Shown here in pieces: positions 61 to 36,189 of a stretch of DNA of 46,628 bases. The stretch is from assembly GCF_009602465.1 (NCBI RefSeq), contig NZ_WBKP01000028.1:1-46628 (forward strand), written 5' to 3'. Positions within the stretch are counted from its first letter, which is position 1. Each line of letters begins with the position of its first letter. The DNA is from Cumulibacter manganitolerans (GTDB taxonomy: Bacteria; Actinomycetota; Actinomycetes; Mycobacteriales; Antricoccaceae). A program made the position numbers and the translations under genes. The notes under the pieces were generated by a model. The model worked only from the letters and a program-made list of their open reading frames with translations, was not told the DNA's origin and ran no database searches.

Positions 61-104
61 CTCGTGAAACATCGAGGCTAGGCGAAGCGACGTCGAGACG
101 CCCG
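61..104. repeat. Interspersed repeat, partial copy
   Basis: This stretch ends in the half-site GACGTCGAGACG and includes the segment taggcgaagc that also occurs at 850-880. It is a partial copy of the family seen complete at 824-883, 24494-24800 and 31731-32248. It lies directly beyond the stop codon of the metallophosphoesterase. The rest of bases 1-60 shows no feature I can support. Confidence 0.6.
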
Positions 105-681: not shown

Positions 682-845
682 ATCCCACGGTCGACGTCCA
701 CTCCGTCCACTGGTCGAGGTCGACTTCATCCCACGGTCACCGTCGACGTTCATCCCATGGTCGACGTCCGCTTTCATCCCACGGTCGACGTCGACTTTGT
801 CCCATGGTCATCGTCGACTTCCTCCGATGGTCGTCGAGCGAGCGG
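682..845. repeat. Minisatellite, about seven 23-24 bp units
   Basis: Units begin at about 682, 705, 728, 752, 776, 799 and 822, with an approximate consensus atcccaYGGTCgaCGTCgac. The last unit runs into a copy of the interspersed repeat, and the unit core (CCATGGTCGACGTC-like) resembles that family, so the minisatellite may be an expansion of part of it. It lies upstream of the metallophosphoesterase. The gap 640-937 holds only this array and the following repeat. Confidence 0.75.
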
Positions 846-883
846 AGCCGATAGGCGAAGCGACGTCGAGACGCCGGAAGCCG
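824..883. repeat. Interspersed repeat, complete copy
   Basis: Contains GGTCGTCGAGCGAGC, a short middle, then GACGTCGAGACGCCGG. The two ends (CGTCGAGC... and ...GTCGAGACG) are partly complementary when inverted, so a stem-loop is possible. The reverse complement matches the copies at 24.5 kb and the tandem array at 31.7 kb. It lies just beyond the stop codon of the small membrane protein, a position that would suit a terminator or REP-like element. Confidence 0.65.
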
Positions 884-24493: not shown

Positions 24494-24864
24494 TTCCGCT
24501 CCCGCCGGGGACATTTCCTGCTCCCGGCGTCTCGACGTCGCCTCCGCCTAGCGGCTCCGGCTCGCTCGACGACCAATGGGGTGGCTCGGTCGGCGACCAT
24601 TGAGTGGCGCCGCCGGTGGTTACACGGTCGTCGAGCGAGCGAGGAACGAGCGACGTCGAGACGACGTGAGTCCAGAGGATTCCGCTCCCGCCGGGGACAT
24701 TTCCGGCTCCCGGCGTCTCGACGTCGCCTCCGCCTAGCGGCTCCGGCTCGCTCGACGACCAATGGGGTGGCTCGGTCGGCGCCCATTGAGCGGCGCGGCC
24801 GGCAACCGTGGGGTGGCTCGACGACCACTGGGGTGACTCGCCGGGCGCCGGTGACCGTGGGCCG
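24494..24864. repeat. Repeat cluster: 117 bp direct repeat plus inverted copies
   Basis: Copies at 24494-24610 and 24680-24796 differ at three positions by my count and contain GTCTCGACGTCG...GGCTCGCTCGACGACC. Between them, 24630-24664 carries the same core in inverse orientation (CGTCGAGCGAGC...GACGTCGAGACG). A further partial copy with CTCGACGACCACTGG lies at 24812-24840. The cluster fills the space between the convergent BY-kinase and phosphatase genes, and no gene is supported here. Confidence 0.85.
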
Positions 24865-28175: not shown

Positions 28176-30272
28176 ATGGACGAGCTGTCCGGCTGGGCCG
28201 ACCCCGTCGCGTACCTCACGCGCACCACTTCCTCGAACAGCGAGGCCCCCGGGGCGAGTGACAGTCGATCTGGGGCAGCCGGCGATTCGGTCGGCCAGAG
28301 CGGGCGCTCGGCCGGTGCGGGCGACGCCGGACGGACGCCTGTATCCAGCGGGGACGGCGGGTGGGCGCCGGCGTGGGGCACGGACTTCGAGTCGTCGCCG
28401 GGCGCTGTCGAGCTCGATGCGGAGATCGCCGAGCTGCTCGGGCGGCTCCGCTCGGGCCTGGACGGACTGTTGGCCATCGGCGACCGCGGCGACTTGATGG
28501 CGCTGGGGCCGCGCCGGCTGATTGGGGTGATCCAGGGGTTCGAGGCGCACCGCAACGCTCTGGCCGCGGTGGACGCGCTGCTGGTCGAGGCCGCCGGCGA
28601 GGAGCGGCTCGCCGCGCACCTGACGGCGCCGACCCTGCCGTCGGCATTGTCGCGGTTGGTGAAGATCTCCCCCGCCGCCGCAGCCGCGCGGGTTCGCCAG
28701 GCGGAGCAGATCCTGCCGCAGCATGCCTACAGCGCCGGGACGCTCGAATGCGAGCGTCCCGCGCTGCGCGACGCCGTCCGCGCCGGTGTCCTCAGCTGTG
28801 ATCAGCACGCGGTGATCAGCAGCGCGCTGCGAAAGCTCGCCACCAACCCCGAGGTCCAGGCCGAGCAGCTCGAGCAGGCGGAGAACACCCTGGTCGAGTT
28901 CGCGGCCTCGCTCACCCCGGATGAGCTGAAGCAGGCCGCGCGGGTGATCGACGACTGCCTGCTTCCCGACGGGACACTGCCGAGCGAAGAGCTCACCCGC
29001 GCACGGCGTGGGCTGCACCTCGGACCGGCTCGCCGCGACGGCACCCACCACCTCACCGGCAGCCTGACCCCGGAGCTGCACGCGAAGCTCTCGGCGATCC
29101 TGTCCCCGCTCGCGGCTCCGAAGCCCTCGAACGAGCACGGCGCGGACCGGCGCAGCGCCGACCAGCGCCAGCACGACGCGCTCGAGGAGATCGCCGACCG
29201 AATGCTCGACAGCGACGCGCTCCCGCGCACCGGCGGGGCGAAGACGACCATCCACGTCACCATCTCCCTCGAGCAGCTTCGCCGCCGCCTGGCGGAGATG
29301 CGTCGCCGCGATGCGGCGCTCGGTGGCTACCGGGGCAGCGCCGACCCCGCCGCCTCCGGCCACCGATGCGGGTGGCTCGCCGACACTCCGACCGGCGCGG
29401 GTCTCGACGGCGCGCTGAGCCCTAACGGGGCTCGCCACGACAATGCCGAGCCGGCCGGAACAGAGCCGAATGGTTCGGGACGGCGAGGGGCCGGGCCGGA
29501 CGGCGCTGAGCCGTGGACGCCCGGTGGGTGGAACGGCGGGCGGTTCAACCTCAGCACGTTCCAGGAGCGCGCCGCGGCGACCACGACGTTCGGCACGCAG
29601 CTGTCGGCCAGCGAGCTGCTGCGCCTGGCCGAGCAGGCCGAGATCATCCCGACCTTCGTCAACGATGCAGGCGGCGTCCTGGCGTATGGACGGGCGCGGC
29701 GCTTCGCCTCACCCAGCCAGGTCAAGGCCCTGGTCGGGCGCGACAAGGGTTGCTCCTTCCCCGCCTGCACCGCGCCACCGGAGTGGTGCGACAGCCACCA
29801 CATCATCGAATGGTGGCGCGGCGGACGCACGGACATCGACAACCTGACCTTGTTGTGCGGCTACCACCATCGGGAGTTCCTGCAGCGTGGCTGGAGCGTG
29901 CGCATGCACGACGGCATCCCCCTGTGGATACCGCCGCCGTGGATCGATGCCGATCGCAAGCCGCAGGTCAACACGCGCATCGCGGGACTCCAGCCGCATC
30001 TCGACCTGTCCCTGTTCCAGCTCGGGGAGCAGCCGGAGCCCGGCAGGCCGACGCCAGACAGCGGAAGTCCGCCCGGACATCTCGACCTCTCGCGGACCGA
30101 CCGGATCGATGATCTCGACCCGCTCGACGACCTCATCGACCTACTCGAGCACCACGTCACCGCCGAGCAGCGCGACGCCTTCCATCGCGACCTGGCCGAC
30201 CTGCTCACCCACTACGGCAGCCAGTGCCCGCTGGAGCAGGCCGTCGACGTCGGCCCTCGAGCGATGGCCTGA
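28176..30272 (+). CDS. DUF222/HNH endonuclease-domain protein (13E12 type)
   Basis: A 698-residue protein. The DUF222 region spans about residues 60-380 (helical, with LMALGPRRLIGVIQGFEAHRN and LTGSLTPELHAKLSAIL). A Gly/Ala/Pro-rich linker follows, then an HNH domain at about 525-575 with CDSHHIIEWWRGG, the Asn of DIDNLTLLCGYHH, and the cysteines of CSFPACTAPP. Such genes are abundant in Actinomycetota, often as mobile-looking paralogues; the function is unknown, though DNA cleavage or repair is suggested by HNH and SOS control. Start ATG 28176 has GGAAGGGGG upstream. It is isolated from neighbours and preceded by a LexA box. Confidence 0.88.
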   Translation: MDELSGWADPVAYLTRTTSSNSEAPGASDSRSGAAGDSVGQSGRSAGAGDAGRTPVSSGDGGWAPAWGTDFESSPGAVELDAEIAELLGRLRSGLDGLLAIGDRGDLMALGPRRLIGVIQGFEAHRNALAAVDALLVEAAGEERLAAHLTAPTLPSALSRLVKISPAAAAARVRQAEQILPQHAYSAGTLECERPALRDAVRAGVLSCDQHAVISSALRKLATNPEVQAEQLEQAENTLVEFAASLTPDELKQAARVIDDCLLPDGTLPSEELTRARRGLHLGPARRDGTHHLTGSLTPELHAKLSAILSPLAAPKPSNEHGADRRSADQRQHDALEEIADRMLDSDALPRTGGAKTTIHVTISLEQLRRRLAEMRRRDAALGGYRGSADPAASGHRCGWLADTPTGAGLDGALSPNGARHDNAEPAGTEPNGSGRRGAGPDGAEPWTPGGWNGGRFNLSTFQERAAATTTFGTQLSASELLRLAEQAEIIPTFVNDAGGVLAYGRARRFASPSQVKALVGRDKGCSFPACTAPPEWCDSHHIIEWWRGGRTDIDNLTLLCGYHHREFLQRGWSVRMHDGIPLWIPPPWIDADRKPQVNTRIAGLQPHLDLSLFQLGEQPEPGRPTPDSGSPPGHLDLSRTDRIDDLDPLDDLIDLLEHHVTAEQRDAFHRDLADLLTHYGSQCPLEQAVDVGPRAMA

Positions 30273-31718: not shown

Positions 31719-31730
31719 CAGGGGCACGGG

Positions 31731-32248
31731 CGGCTCCCGGCGTCTCGACGTCGGTCGCTGGCGCTCCCTCGCTCGACGACCAGCGGAAGGGCCTCCCTTA
31801 CTCGACGACCAGCGGAAGGGGGCCCTCGCGGGGCGGCTCCCGGCGTCTCGACGTCGGTCGCTGGCGCTCCCTCGCTCGACGACCAGCGGAAGGGCCTCCC
31901 TTACTCGACGACCAGCGGAAGGGGGCCCTCGCGGGGCGGCTCCCGGCGTCTCGACGTCGGTCGCTGGCGCTCCCTCGCTCGACGACCAGCGGAAGGGCCT
32001 CCCTTACTCGACGACCAGCGGAAGGGGGCCCTCGCGGGGCGGCTCCCGGCGTCTCGACGTCGGTCGCTGGCGCTCCCTCGCTCGACGACCAGCGGAAAGG
32101 CGCTGCCTCGCTCGACGACCAGCGGAAGGGGGCCCTCGCGGGGCGGCTCCCGGCGTCTCGACGTCGGTCGCTGGCGCTCCCTCGCTCGACGACCAGCGGA
32201 GGGGCCTCCCTCGCTCGACCAGCGGAGGGGGCCCTCGCGGGGCGGCTC
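31731..32248. repeat. Tandem array, five units of about 103 bp
   Basis: Units start at 31731, 31834, 31937, 32040 and 32144, each opening CGGCTCCCGGCGTCTCGACG. The first three look identical by eye, the fourth has a changed middle and is 104 bp, and the fifth is shortened and diverged. Every unit holds two CTCGACGACCAGCGGA-like motifs, the core of the interspersed repeat. The array fills the space between the carboxypeptidase and trpS. Because 103 is not a multiple of three, reading frames rotate between units and the array is not coding. Confidence 0.92.
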
Positions 32249-32315
32249 GCGTCGTCATGGGAGGGCGCGTGGGATGATGGACGACGCACTTTGCGTCACG
32301 TCTGAAAGGTCCCCC

Positions 32316-33332
32316 GTGAGCTCCTCGCAGCGCGTCTTCTCCGGCATCCAGCCGACCGCCGATTCGTTCCATCTCGGCAACTACTTCGGCGCGCTGAAGC
32401 ACTGGCGGACCATGCAGGACGCCGGCAGCGACTGCGTCTACTCGGTCGTCGACCTGCACGCGATCACCATCGAGTCGCAGCAGGATCCCGCGCAGCTGCA
32501 CCGCCGGACGCTGGTCAGCTACGCGCAGCTGTTGTCGATGGGCATCGACCCGCAGAAATCGGTGCTGTTCGTGCAGTCCCACGTGCCCGAGCACGCCCAG
32601 CTGGCCTGGGTCCTGCAGTGCATCACCGGTTTCGGCGAGGCCGGCCGGATGACCCAGTTCAAGGACAAGTCCGGCAAGGAGGGCAACGACCACACCTCCG
32701 TCGGCCTGTTCACCTACCCGATGCTGATGGCCGCCGACATACTGCTGTACCGCACCGACGGCGTCCCGGTCGGCGAGGACCAGCGCCAGCATCTGGAGCT
32801 CTCGCGCAACCTCGCGCAGCGGTTCAACTCGCGGTTCGGCGAGACGTTCACGGTGCCCGAGCCGATCATCCAAAAGGCCACCGCGAAGTTCGTGGACCTG
32901 CAGAATCCGACCGGCAAGATGAGCAAGTCCGCCGGTACGGGCGGCGGCATGATCAACGTCCTCGACGACCCGAAGCAGATCACCAAGCGCATCAAGTCGG
33001 CGGTCACCGACAACGAGGGCGTGGTCCGGTTCGACCGCGAGACCCAGCCGGGCGTCGCCAACCTGCTGTCGATCCTCGGCGCCGCAACGGATCGGGATCC
33101 CGAGAGCCTGGTGGCCGACTACGAAGGCAAGGGCTACGGCGCGCTCAAGACGGACGTCGCCGATGCGGTCGTCGCGGAGTTCACGCCGATCGCGGAGCGC
33201 ACCCGCGAGCTGCTCGAGGACCCCGCCCAGCTGATCCGCACGATGGCCGACGGCGCCCACCGCGCCCGCGCGCTCGCCGAGCCGGTCCTCAAGGACGCGT
33301 ACGAAGCAGTCGGATTCGTCGGGATCGCATAA
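32316..33332 (+). CDS. Tryptophanyl-tRNA synthetase
   Basis: A 338-residue class I aminoacyl-tRNA synthetase that charges tRNA-Trp. It begins [26 protein letters not shown], where HLGN is the HIGH-type signature, and carries GKMSKSAG as the KMSKS loop near residue 200, with the normal bacterial length. GTG 32316 with AAAGG seven bases upstream fits the family start better than the ATG codons 40 bases earlier, which abut the repeat array. It is followed two bases later by the 2H phosphoesterase gene. Confidence 0.95.
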
Positions 33333-33334
33333 CG

Positions 33335-33877
33335 ATGGGCGGCAGCGAGGTCACCGTCGGGCTCTCGATCCCGATGCCTGCGCCGTACGACGCGGTGCTG
33401 CAGGAGTGGCGCCGGCGAAGCGGCGACCCGATGGCCGAGCTGGTGATGCCGCACGTGACGCTGGTCCCGCCGACACCGGTCGCCGAGGAGGCGCTGGACC
33501 GGGTGCTGTCGACGCTCCGTGAGCGGTGCACCGGGTTGACGTCGTTTCCCCTGCGGCTGCGGGGAACCGGCACCTTCAGGCCGATCTCGGACGTCGTGTT
33601 CGTCGCGGTCGCCGACGGCATCTCGCACTGCGAGGTGCTCGCCGAGCGCCTGCGCACCGACGAGCTGCGGCCCCAGCTCGAGTACCCCTATCACCCGCAC
33701 GTCACCGTCGCGCAGAACGTGCCCACCGAGGCGCTGGATGCGGTGTTCGACGGCCTGGAGGACTTCCGGGCCGACATCGTCGTCGACGAGGTGTGGGCGC
33801 ATCGCCAGAACGACGACGGCTCGTGGACGCCGCTCACCTCTTTCGCCCTGGCAGAAGGAAACCAGGAGCAGACCTGA
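33335..33877 (+). CDS. 2H phosphoesterase / 2'-5' RNA ligase-like protein
   Basis: A 180-residue protein with the two HxT motifs of the 2H superfamily, PHVTLVPP near residue 35 and HPHVTVAQN near residue 120. Family members act on 2',3'-cyclic or 2'-5' phosphodiester bonds in RNA or nucleotides; the substrate here is unknown. It begins two bases after trpS and its TGA overlaps the ATG of the next gene by one base, so trpS, this gene and yihY form an operon. Confidence 0.85.
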   Translation: MGGSEVTVGLSIPMPAPYDAVLQEWRRRSGDPMAELVMPHVTLVPPTPVAEEALDRVLSTLRERCTGLTSFPLRLRGTGTFRPISDVVFVAVADGISHCEVLAERLRTDELRPQLEYPYHPHVTVAQNVPTEALDAVFDGLEDFRADIVVDEVWAHRQNDDGSWTPLTSFALAEGNQEQT

Positions 33878-34881
33878 TGTCGGACCGGGTGCCGCTCCGC
33901 CAGCTCGCGAGGCAGGTCGACGACCTGCAGAGCGTGCGGGAGGAGCCGGCGCCCGATCCGGAGGCGGGCCGCGTCGTACGCCGCTTCCGCGCCATGCGGG
34001 CGAAGTGGGAGTGGTTCGACCATGCGGTGATCGCCCTCCTGCGCTACGACCGGCGCAACGGTGACACCTACGCGGCCGGGCTGACGTTCCAGACCTTCAC
34101 CGCCATCGTCCCGCTGCTGATGCTCGCCGCCGCCGGATTCGGGCTGGTGCTGCGACGCGAGATCACGTGGGCCCGCGACCTGTTCGAGAAGGTGGCCGAG
34201 CAGATTCCAGGCGGCGGCGGTGAAGTGCTGATCCGGGCGCTGCGCGCGGTGCAGACCCTGGCGGGCACGATCGGCGTCCTGTCGCTGCTTCTCGTGCTGT
34301 GGCTGGGAACCAGCTGGATCGGGAACATGCGCGTGGCGATCCAGCGCATGTGGGGCCACATCCCCGGGGGCGTGAGCTGGCTGAAGGAGAAGGGCGTCGA
34401 CCTCGTCGTGCTGATCGGCCTGGGCCTCGCCGCACTCGTCTCGCTCGGGCTGAGCACCTCGGCCGGTGACATCACCGGGCACATCGTGTCCGCGCTGGGG
34501 CTCGACCACATCCCCGGAGCGGGCGTCTTCCTGAAGATCGTCGCGGTCGGGGCCGCGCTGCTCGCCGACATCGCGATCCTGCAGTACATGATGGTCACCC
34601 TCGCCCGGCAGCGGGTCTCCCGCCGCCCGGTGCTGCGCGGCGCGGTGCTCGGCGCCGTCGGCTTCGAGATCCTCAAGCTGCTCGGCACCGTGTTCATCGG
34701 ACGGCTGATCTCGACCAGCCCCGCCGCCGGCGTGTTCGGCGCGATCGTCGTGCTGCTCGTCTGGCTCAACCTGATCTGCCGATGGCTCCTCATCGTGGTG
34801 TGCTGGACGGCGACGAGCCGCCCCGTCCTGGACGCCCAGCTGACCGCGTTCCGCCGCGAAAGTCCAGGTCAGCCGACCTAG
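33877..34881 (+). CDS. YihY/BrkB family membrane protein
   Basis: A 334-residue protein with six hydrophobic segments beginning near residue 65. The family signature region GDTYAAGLTFQTFTAIVPLLMLAAAGFGL is clear, as is the later VFGAIVVLLVWLNLICRWLLIV. Function is not settled (the old 'ribonuclease BN' name is wrong; transporter roles have been proposed). A YihY gene next to trpS is a common actinobacterial arrangement. Confidence 0.9.
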   Translation: MSDRVPLRQLARQVDDLQSVREEPAPDPEAGRVVRRFRAMRAKWEWFDHAVIALLRYDRRNGDTYAAGLTFQTFTAIVPLLMLAAAGFGLVLRREITWARDLFEKVAEQIPGGGGEVLIRALRAVQTLAGTIGVLSLLLVLWLGTSWIGNMRVAIQRMWGHIPGGVSWLKEKGVDLVVLIGLGLAALVSLGLSTSAGDITGHIVSALGLDHIPGAGVFLKIVAVGAALLADIAILQYMMVTLARQRVSRRPVLRGAVLGAVGFEILKLLGTVFIGRLISTSPAAGVFGAIVVLLVWLNLICRWLLIVVCWTATSRPVLDAQLTAFRRESPGQPT

Positions 34882-35142
34882 ATCCCGACCCGCCCCGCAC
34901 TGGACAGAAGCTCTTCTTGGGTGTCTACTGACCGTAATCAAGCACAGCCCATTCACAGACAAGGAGGCCCACCCGGCCTTCCTCATCCCCTCGGCGGAGT
35001 CTCCGTGGCCCTGCTCATGACCGGTGCGGCGGCGGCAGTCGTAGGACGGCGTCGTCGGACCCGAGGGGTCGCGCGCCGGGCCCTGTCCAGCACGTGGCTG
35101 GGCAGGGCGTCCGGTGCGGGATCGAGCCGGCGAACGCGCGGA
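34882..35142. other. Gene-free spacer between convergent genes
   Basis: No gene is supported. AGGAGGCC at 34962-34969 can pair with GGCCTTCCT at 34975-34983 with one bulge, a small GC hairpin that could terminate transcription in both directions. A short AGAAG/CTTCT pairing lies at 34907-34918. Confidence 0.4.
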
Positions 35143-36189
35143 TCAGGCCAGCGTCTCCCGCAGCAGCGCATCGACGTCCGCGAACACCCCGGTGGGCGCG
35201 ATCGCACGGCCGGCGACGGCGTCCACCATCGCGGCCAGCCCGGGCAGCGGCTCGCCGGCGCGTGCACCGTCGGCGTCCTGCAGCGGATTGCGCCGGCCGG
35301 GCCACGAGGCGGTGAGCTGCGACCACGTCCTGGCCCACGCGGCCGCGAGCTCCTTCGCCGTCGGTACGCCGAACCCGTGCCCGACCGGAGCGGCGTGCCG
35401 CAGCGCCACGAGCGGCAACTCGACGAACTGGCCCGCGATCACCAGCCGGTCGGCGAGCGCCTCCTTGTCGCCGGGGAGGTCGCGCCACACGGCGCACTTG
35501 CGCTCGCACGCCCGCAGCGGCCTCGGACGGCCGGCCTCCAGCAGGCCGCACGTCGACAGCGCCGCCGACACCCGGGAGTGGTCGCGTTCGAGGTACTCGC
35601 GCCAGATGCGCCCATGGTCCTCACGCGACCACTCCTTCGACGGGCGACCGACGCGCACCGCCTCGCGCAGCGAGCCGCGCAGGGTTGGCGAGTGCGCGCA
35701 CTCGCGGCCGCGGGGCTCGTCGCGGTCGATCCCCCACAGGCTGCCGGGCCGGGTCACCAGCTCGACCAGCCGCGGCGGATCCCCGGCATGGCCCAGATGC
35801 GGCTCCCACGCGAGCAACGGAAGATACTCGCTCATGATGTGGCAGACGAGCAGCACGCCGGCGAGGTCGCCCTGCCGGTGGCGGACCGCGATCACCTCCT
35901 GCAGGATCGCGAACGTCGGCGCGAGGGAGCCGAGCGCGCCCCGGTCCTTCGCCGCCGGGTCCTGCGGCACGTTGGCCGCCCGGGCGATCTCCCGCAGCCG
36001 GGCCGGCACGTGGGGGAAGTCGGTCCAGTCCTCGGCATCGAGCGCGAGGATCGACAGCGCGTAGTCGCACAGCGTCTGCGCGGTACGGCGCCGTGCCGGC
36101 TCGAGGTCGAGGACCGGCAGGATAGCCCGCAGTCCTCGGTAGCTTGGCGCCGACAGCAGCGCGTCGACGAATCCGCCCGCGCTCGTCAC
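35143..36189 (-). CDS. Unrecognised 348-residue protein
   Basis: I do not recognise this family. The product looks soluble and mostly helical, with no signal peptide or membrane segment. Notable parts are DYALSILALDAEDW, an Ile/Val-rich stretch AILQEVIAVRHRQGDLAGVLLVCHI, and a Cys cluster in the last third (STCGLLEAG...LRACERKCAVW) that could bind metal. GTG 36189 is preceded by AGGG and lies eight bases after the aminotransferase stop; the longer open frame upstream is antisense noise across that gene. It is likely co-transcribed with the CNNM and aminotransferase genes. Confidence 0.65.
   Translation of the reverse strand: MTSAGGFVDALLSAPSYRGLRAILPVLDLEPARRRTAQTLCDYALSILALDAEDWTDFPHVPARLREIARAANVPQDPAAKDRGALGSLAPTFAILQEVIAVRHRQGDLAGVLLVCHIMSEYLPLLAWEPHLGHAGDPPRLVELVTRPGSLWGIDRDEPRGRECAHSPTLRGSLREAVRVGRPSKEWSREDHGRIWREYLERDHSRVSAALSTCGLLEAGRPRPLRACERKCAVWRDLPGDKEALADRLVIAGQFVELPLVALRHAAPVGHGFGVPTAKELAAAWARTWSQLTASWPGRRNPLQDADGARAGEPLPGLAAMVDAVAGRAIAPTGVFADVDALLRETLA

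Follow-up and report, generated by a model that had tools for sequence, protein, structure and literature searches.

A dispersed gene-end repeat family in Cumulibacter manganitolerans and its arrangement beside DUF222-HNH genes

MITEs and ERIC-like elements are about 120 bp in length, with long terminal inverted repeats, no gene inside and a larger element that has the same ends. Among the REP-type repeats, the REPINs of Pseudomonas are REP doublets proposed to be the moving unit mobilized by a RAYT; tandem clusters that include flanking sequence, and clusters located beside the transposase gene, are described for them (PMC3116915). CGTC-tagged REPs, reported from Proteobacteria, Chlorobi, Bacteroidetes, Spirochaetes, and Thermotogae, consist of stem-loop units, are described as apparently having no dedicated transposase, and form heterodimers in some families (PMC3733652). 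Actinomycete genomes are tabulated in the description of a survey tool for REPs (PMC12306157).

A different kind of repeated sequence is formed by the REP13E12/DUF222-HNH genes of Mycobacterium tuberculosis, which are present in multiple copies (PMC13061034, PMC10589994, PMC4181829). HNH genes of the 13E12 family are named among the LexA targets of this species (PMC4181829), and five putative HNH endonucleases are listed in its RecA-dependent response (PMC8151990). A 2026 preprint ranks the REP13E12 loci with those most often converted in M. tuberculosis and says of these regions that they have no defined biological function (PMC13061034). The repeat family analyzed here resembles the first group in its layout and is found, in two genomes, beside genes of the second.

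The repeat unit, its copies and its paired form

The window is a stretch of 46,628 nucleotides, contig C28 of the C. manganitolerans genome (G000), a 3.9-Mb draft in 136 contigs. In a preliminary description, a repeat was noted at 24.5 kb and linked to copies at 61, 824, and 31731, and all four are present in the sequence. The copies in the window are as follows.

88-99, minus strand: head fragment, with the head exact and the second half degenerate
681-833: 23-bp tandem repeats that adjoin the unit at 829 and resemble iterated tail sequence
829-872, minus strand: single whole unit, with its tail at 829
24494-24616, plus strand: first direct copy, 123 nt, containing the unit 24529-24574
24626-24662, minus strand: inverted unit with the short middle CTCGTTCCTCG, between the two direct copies
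24680-24802, plus strand: second direct copy, 123 nt, 97% identity to the first, containing the unit 24715-24760
24811-24849, plus strand: degenerate tail-like copy (82%)
31728-32256, plus strand: tandem array with a period of 103 bp and 5.2 copies, with units at 31742-31781, 31845-31884, 31948-31987, 32051-32090, and 32155-32194

The first direct copy begins immediately 3' of the stop codon of a polysaccharide tyrosine-kinase gene (end 24493), and its unit consists of the head GTCTCGACGTCG, a middle, and the tail GCTCGCTCGACGACC. The layout of two direct copies around an inverted one was described correctly, and the length given for them, 117 bp, was close to the actual 123 nt. The inverted unit and the unit at 24715-24760 stand head to head with a gap of 52 nt. 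As for the relatives, that at 824 proved to be a whole unit on the minus strand and that at 31731 the 103-bp array, which has a D-Ala-D-Ala carboxypeptidase-like gene on one side and trpS on the other; at 61, the exact head was recovered and the remainder is degenerate, so that only a fragment is present there. Allowing two mismatches, the 12-mer head is found 35 times in the window (10 of them exact), compared with 18.1 (standard deviation, 4.4) in shuffled sequences, and the 15-mer tail word is found 15 times where 1.1 are expected. An Rfam search of the window gave no match. Between approximately 1786 and 20573, few genes were returned by the codon-usage caller (trained also on other stretches) despite long open frames, and this part of the window is possibly acquired DNA.

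To determine copy number, the exact 12-mer head was counted across the genome. G000 contains 195 occurrences, split 102 to 93 between the two strands, compared with a single occurrence of the same word reversed; the further copies on which the preliminary reading depended thus exist. The analyzed set of 45 stretches plus the window (447,690 bases) covers 152 of the 195 exact heads, with 43 lying outside it. Within this set, 160 units with a head (at most two mismatches) and a tail were identified, together with nine exact heads that have no tail, some of which resemble chance matches in coding sequence. The order of a unit is an inner flank (often TGTCGGCT.GCGGC), the head, a middle of variable length, and the tail CTCGCTCGACGACC, which is usually followed by GT and often trailed by shorter iterations of the tail sequence. 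GT directly follows the tail in at least 130 of the 160 units, extended to GTGG in 57 and to GTAG in 4; GTAG precedes the head in none of the 160. The middles are the most varied part, with 39 distinct forms in 139 perfect units, the commonest being CTCGTTCCTCGC (n = 33), GGCTCGTTCCTCGCCC (n = 13), and CCTCCGCTGGCGCTCCGGC (n = 11).

Where neighboring units lie less than 300 nt apart, 42 of 101 pairs are head to head. For the 39 head-to-head pairs with a gap below 60 nt, the gap is 28 nt in 23 and 29 nt in 4. An alignment was made of 22 of the 37 distinct pairs, those with spacers of 28 to 29 nt and with three near-duplicates excluded. Base pairing between the arms extends over 34 positions, of which 17 are outer and 17 inner, the paired element occurs in both orientations, and the middles of the two arms differ in every row, one usually being long and the other short. 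The commonest complex unit therefore comprises two ends placed head to head approximately 28 nt apart and, because its arms carry different middles, its two ends can be told apart. At L083:3426-3554, directly upstream of gyrA, two units stand head to head with a wider gap of 48 nt; another gene ends 48 nt before this pair.

The suggestion that the halves are partly self-complementary proved weak. Five single units fold no better than shuffled sequences (z from -0.68 to 0.55), whereas the one head-to-head pair tested folds at a z of -6.5, indicating that the structured unit is the pair, as in a REPIN or small MITE. The middles had been expected to form hairpins, and this was not found: 27 of the 30 commonest of the 39 distinct middles fail to beat 95% of shuffles. 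Covariation analysis of the 22 aligned pairs gave no support for a conserved fold (-0.59 kcal/mol); in the consensus fold, three base pairs at the edge of the middles have changes on both sides, which were not taken as support because the same element is read there in both orientations.

Position relative to genes was examined using a simple codon-usage caller, whose gene starts are approximate and which misses genes of atypical composition (for example, much of 1.8 to 20.6 kb of the window). With this caller, the 58 repeat clusters fall in 30 convergent, 20 tandem, and 4 divergent spacers, with another 4 at contig ends, compared with 21 convergent, 107 tandem, and 59 divergent repeat-free spacers in the same stretches. 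Convergent spacers are enriched for clusters relative to the rest (Fisher p = 7e-11). Only 8 of the 58 clusters overlap a called gene, the others being in spacers or at contig ends, and some stand upstream of genes, gyrA and thrS among them. The copies are thus mostly intergenic and at gene ends, and not scattered at random inside coding sequences. Together, these data support a repeat that is dispersed, located at gene ends, probably non-autonomous, and also amplified in tandem, in line with the earlier proposal of a non-autonomous element that grows locally into arrays.

Versions in related genomes and the search for a mobilizer

Five genomes of the family were compared, G000 and the relatives G001 to G004, the last of which belongs to another genus. 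The exact head word is found 195 times in G000, 23 in G003, 15 in G001, 12 in G004, and 7 in G002. About half of the 23 words in G003 are units and the remainder look coding; this genome has its own version, GTCTCGGCGTCG, in 54 copies (control, 0), and two detectors put its units at 58 to 70 in total, mostly in same-strand tandem arrays (33 of 37 neighbor pairs). The version of G004 reads TCTCGACAACC...CTCGACCACC, with similar middles. G001 and G002 are practically without the repeat, with 2 and 1 matches, respectively, in 60 kb each. Close pairs are rare in the relatives (head to head at less than 70 nt, three in the G004 stretches and one in G003), and of G000, G003, and G004, the 28-nt pair is prominent in G000 only.

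The spacer between the G003 orthologs of the genes at 24.5 kb contains two tandem units of the G003 version with another middle. The place is thus conserved at least once while the sequence is specific to the genome, which fits either homogenization within genomes or repeated colonization of good sites. Another G003 array lies between two genes whose G000 counterparts overlap (TGATG); judged by eye, the repeating unit of this array appears to include the ends of both neighboring genes; for this reason, tandem growth would be a second, local process, such as slippage or unequal repair. When three sites were aligned with the relatives, divergence was too large for clean junctions, and neither a target-site duplication nor a clean empty site was resolved. 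In a further comparison with G001 to G004 (for G002 and G004, part of the segment), the trpS segment of G000 (approximately 32267 to 34841) is inverted relative to its neighbors. One breakpoint coincides with the 103-bp array; an inversion mediated by the repeat was not adopted, as the second breakpoint region (34881 to 35143) contains no repeat.

A looser repeat pattern was applied to 61 genomes of the order. Its count is furthest above that of the reversed control in G000 (292 versus 15) and G004 (200 versus 10); in G003, whose own version the pattern partly misses, it is 41 versus 11. Counts above the control were also obtained for G028 (105 versus 12), G015 (81 versus 16), G012 (73 versus 12), and G017 (68 versus 11), and an excess is seen in G052 and others, from other families of the order. 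The excess in those families may reflect coding bias or other repeat families, and confinement of the repeat class to this family is thus not claimed. A broad actinobacterial version, GTTTCGA...CTCAACCACC and similar forms, written as one regular expression, had no match in 87 loci (80 trpS and 7 others; 865,680 bases), and no match to the repeat was found in the phage, plasmid, and viral collections. Among the matches listed from the open-license literature, there was no actinobacterial REP family of this sequence and no report of repeats flanking DUF222 genes.

A RAYT-type transposase elsewhere in the genome had been suggested as a check. PF01797, the Y1 transposase family that includes the RAYTs, is absent from G000 and from all four relatives, three of these five genomes being in 1 to 20 contigs; across the order, 6 of the 61 genomes gave a match, as did 5 of 14 controls. 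The statement that no transposase accompanies the repeat is accordingly upheld for PF01797, the one family searched genome-wide. The description of the repeat as REP-like fits its copy number, place, and paired layout and does not fit the palindrome of the single unit, the GTAG tag (after the tail in 4 of the 160 units), or the RAYT. As these three were looked for and not found, the family was not filed under REP/RAYT, and it is not a classical system of that kind. A longer carrier element was also sought by self-comparison; duplicated DUF222 genes emerged, and no classical insertion sequence was present in the stretches compared.

Repeats beside DUF222-HNH genes

The link to DUF222 was first seen in a comparison of stretches, where two near-copies of a DUF222 gene have the repeat at an equal upstream distance; three more stretches share another DUF222 gene start with the repeat. 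DUF222 genes are present in 49 of the 61 genomes of the order, and all five genomes of the family have matches, 11 to 30 each. The 70 genes examined include 10 of the 24 matches in G001, and some matches represent a further fragment of a gene already matched; the upstream count omits two G000 genes preceded by less than 300 nt of sequence. One DUF222 gene lies in the window; as it has no repeat, the link is not visible from the window alone.

28176-30272, plus strand: DUF222-HNH gene, with PF02720 and PF01844 above cut-off and no adjacent repeat

Using one caller for all genes and counting those with upstream sequence, a repeat was found within 500 nt upstream of 15 of 21 DUF222 genes in G004 (one of the 21, L331, being a miscalled opposite-strand frame) versus 8 of 113 other genes (Fisher p = 7e-10) and of 5 of 8 in G000 versus 25 of 345 (Fisher p = 1.5e-4), where the control rate is raised by stretches chosen for holding the repeat; both p values are too small, since near-copies of DUF222 genes are not independent. 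With the same caller and limit, the head points toward the gene in 20 of 20 cases at DUF222 genes and in 18 of 33 at other genes. At a narrower limit of 320 nt, the G004 counts are 9 of 21 DUF222 genes and 7 of 141 others. Counted from the open frame, an upstream repeat is present at 18 of 23 DUF222 genes in G004 and 5 of 8 in G000, and the nearest unit faces head-inward in all 23, three of these units falling within the open frame, ahead of the probable start. Downstream repeats occur at 4 of 22 genes in G004 and 1 of 8 in G000, mirrored, with the head toward the gene in all five. At most linked genes, just one side has a repeat. In the two repeat-richest genomes, DUF222 genes sit beside, or in a few cases between, ends oriented as they are in the pairs.

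By the open-frame count, no upstream repeat is present at any DUF222 gene of G001 (0 of 10), G002 (0 of 12), or G003 (0 of 15), so that the link does not hold wherever the repeat occurs, G003 having 58 to 70 units. A loose detector, which also makes false matches inside genes, marked 15 of 23 genes upstream and 5 downstream in G004, 5 of 10 upstream in G000, and 1 of 15 in G003, the last at a distance of 489 nt and in the opposite orientation. A strict detector specific to each version marked 13 of 23 in G004 and 5 in G000. Across a tree of the 70 DUF222 proteins, the repeat label (21 rows from the loose and strict counts, with the three genes added by the open-frame count left out) needs 10 changes, compared with 18.3 when shuffled, and well-supported branches force 9. 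The link therefore does not go back to one inherited copy, several subfamilies having gained or retained it. A single repeat match, located inside the open frame, was obtained for 57 DUF222 genes from seven genomes that do not belong to the family, and the loose pattern is raised also in genomes that have no DUF222 match, such as G015 and G017. The enrichment of repeats at DUF222 genes and their fixed orientation in G000 and G004 are new here.

Of the 25 G000 genes preceded by a repeat, 22 were compared with Pfam, and DUF222 was the only family to recur; the other genes include gyrA, thrS, ferritin, and transporters. HNH is above the Pfam cut-off in two scanned G000 DUF222 proteins, L082 and that of the window, and the linked G000 proteins often have no recognizable HNH domain (L067, 19.8 bits against a cut-off of 21.4; L079, none). 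L093 returned no Pfam family in hmmscan, though the genome search put its DUF222 over the cut-off, and the gene on C11, one of the five linked in G000, is below the DUF222 cut-off (22.2 versus 24.4). An SOS-like box (TCGAAC-N4-GTTCGA, at most one mismatch) is near the start of 23 of 68 DUF222 genes, for some of which a longer stretch was searched, and of none of the 310 other genes taken from G000. The window gene has such a box upstream, at approximately 28127. These boxes agree with the reports of 13E12-family LexA targets and RecA-dependent HNH genes in M. tuberculosis.

Several G000 contigs (C3, C4, C7, C11, C25, C47, C66, and C91) have an end within or close to DUF222 genes or repeats, some of which have the CCCCAGGGG middle. 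The draft probably breaks at the multi-copy DUF222 gene, so that more genes may be linked than were counted. By eye, many of the DUF222 genes L093, L319, and L371 to L399 share TGTCGGTG upstream, shortly before a TAG-containing element near the start, and further upstream have sequences like TTGTCCACA, which recall DnaA boxes.

Origin of the repeat and comparison with known systems

Taken alone, the statement that this is a dispersed REPIN- or MITE-like family operating without a RAYT is very probable. We extend it tentatively to a non-autonomous, two-ended family that is moved and homogenized by DUF222-HNH. In this proposal, the approximately 200 short repeats would have spread as a two-ended inverted-repeat element, movement and homogenization would proceed by cutting and repair and not through a RAYT, and the cutting enzyme would be the DUF222-HNH ('13E12') nuclease. 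Copying of this type would explain both the spread and the genome-specific versions. An arrangement of end, gene, and end with heads inward is that of the pair with a gene in place of the spacer; the pair may therefore be a deleted form of an [end]-DUF222-[end] element, or the gene may have inserted between the arms of a pair. The wider idea that these are genome parasites lacking a Y1 transposase, in which an SOS-type HNH nuclease family (DUF222/13E12) and terminal repeats would make up a new actinobacterial repeat-nuclease system acting by homing-like gene conversion, is unlikely.

The main competitor, which we consider somewhat unlikely, is that the elements are orphans whose transposase was lost, was left unassembled, or went unrecognized, the link to DUF222 reflecting shared mobile or permissive surroundings. 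Dispersal is explicable without a partner, CGTC-class REPs are themselves described as apparently having no dedicated transposase (PMC3733652), and G003 has repeats but no linked DUF222 genes. A draft in 136 contigs could also hide a gene, and the transposase search was genome-wide for PF01797 only; that family is nevertheless missing from five of five genomes, including the three in few contigs. Orientation also speaks against orphan elements: at DUF222 genes, in several subfamilies, the head faces the gene in 20 of 20 cases, compared with 18 of 33 elsewhere, a constancy that common surroundings would not impose. A different relationship between the same two partners, in which DUF222-HNH genes would land on or home to the repeat, inserting between the arms of a pair and moving on to other pairs without spreading the repeat, is improbable. 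The arms flank the gene as expected after insertion into the spacer of a pair, HNH genes are established as homing genes, and the REP13E12 loci of M. tuberculosis point the same way; however, a downstream arm is present at only five of the genes examined, and many DUF222 genes are away from repeats, including all 37 in G001 to G003.

Selection by the host was also weighed: the repeats could be useful gene-end elements, such as two-way terminators or 3' stabilizers of mRNA, homogenized by gene conversion. The preference for convergent spacers, the strong hairpin of the tested pair, and the occupation of the same spacer in G003 by the version of that genome are all in keeping with such a role, yet insertion tolerance would produce the same positions. 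G001 and G002 manage practically without repeats, many clusters are single units (which fold no better than shuffles) or same-strand arrays, and some are upstream of genes such as gyrA and thrS, making a host function decidedly improbable. Local tandem repetition by slippage in GC-rich spacers, with no mobility, is very improbable indeed: arrays are frequent, and one G003 array unit appears to include sequence of both neighboring genes, but one consensus at many unrelated sites cannot arise locally, and the genome-wide count contradicts it.

REP-type repeats with no known mobilizer are an open question, and DUF222-HNH genes are multi-copy in many actinobacteria, including M. tuberculosis, with their function unsettled. 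A fixed layout of repeat and DUF222 gene would tie these two unknowns together and make both testable. Should the DUF222 link fail, a well-counted actinobacterial repeat family with genome-specific versions remains.

Compared with REPINs as described for Pseudomonas, the family shares short units that lie outside genes in many copies, doublets whose inverted arms fold into a single hairpin, clusters in tandem that take in their flanks, and a tie to one kind of gene. It differs from them in that the single unit is no significant palindrome, a RAYT was not found, the candidate partner is DUF222-HNH, and the middles of the two arms consistently differ. With the CGTC-tagged REPs, as these are characterized in their published description, it has in common small repeats, no apparent dedicated transposase and, for some of their families, heterodimers; theirs are stem-loop units in other phyla. 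In contrast to MITEs and ERIC-like elements, the pairs yielded neither a DDE transposase that could be the donor nor a resolved target-site duplication; like them, they measure about 120 bp, have long terminal inverted repeats with no gene between, and may have a larger element with the same ends, the putative one being the DUF222 arrangement, which is mostly one-sided. In the passages on REP13E12 of M. tuberculosis, the repeated sequence is the gene region itself, with no short intergenic repeat family described beside it; what the two have in common is the same Pfam family in multiple copies.
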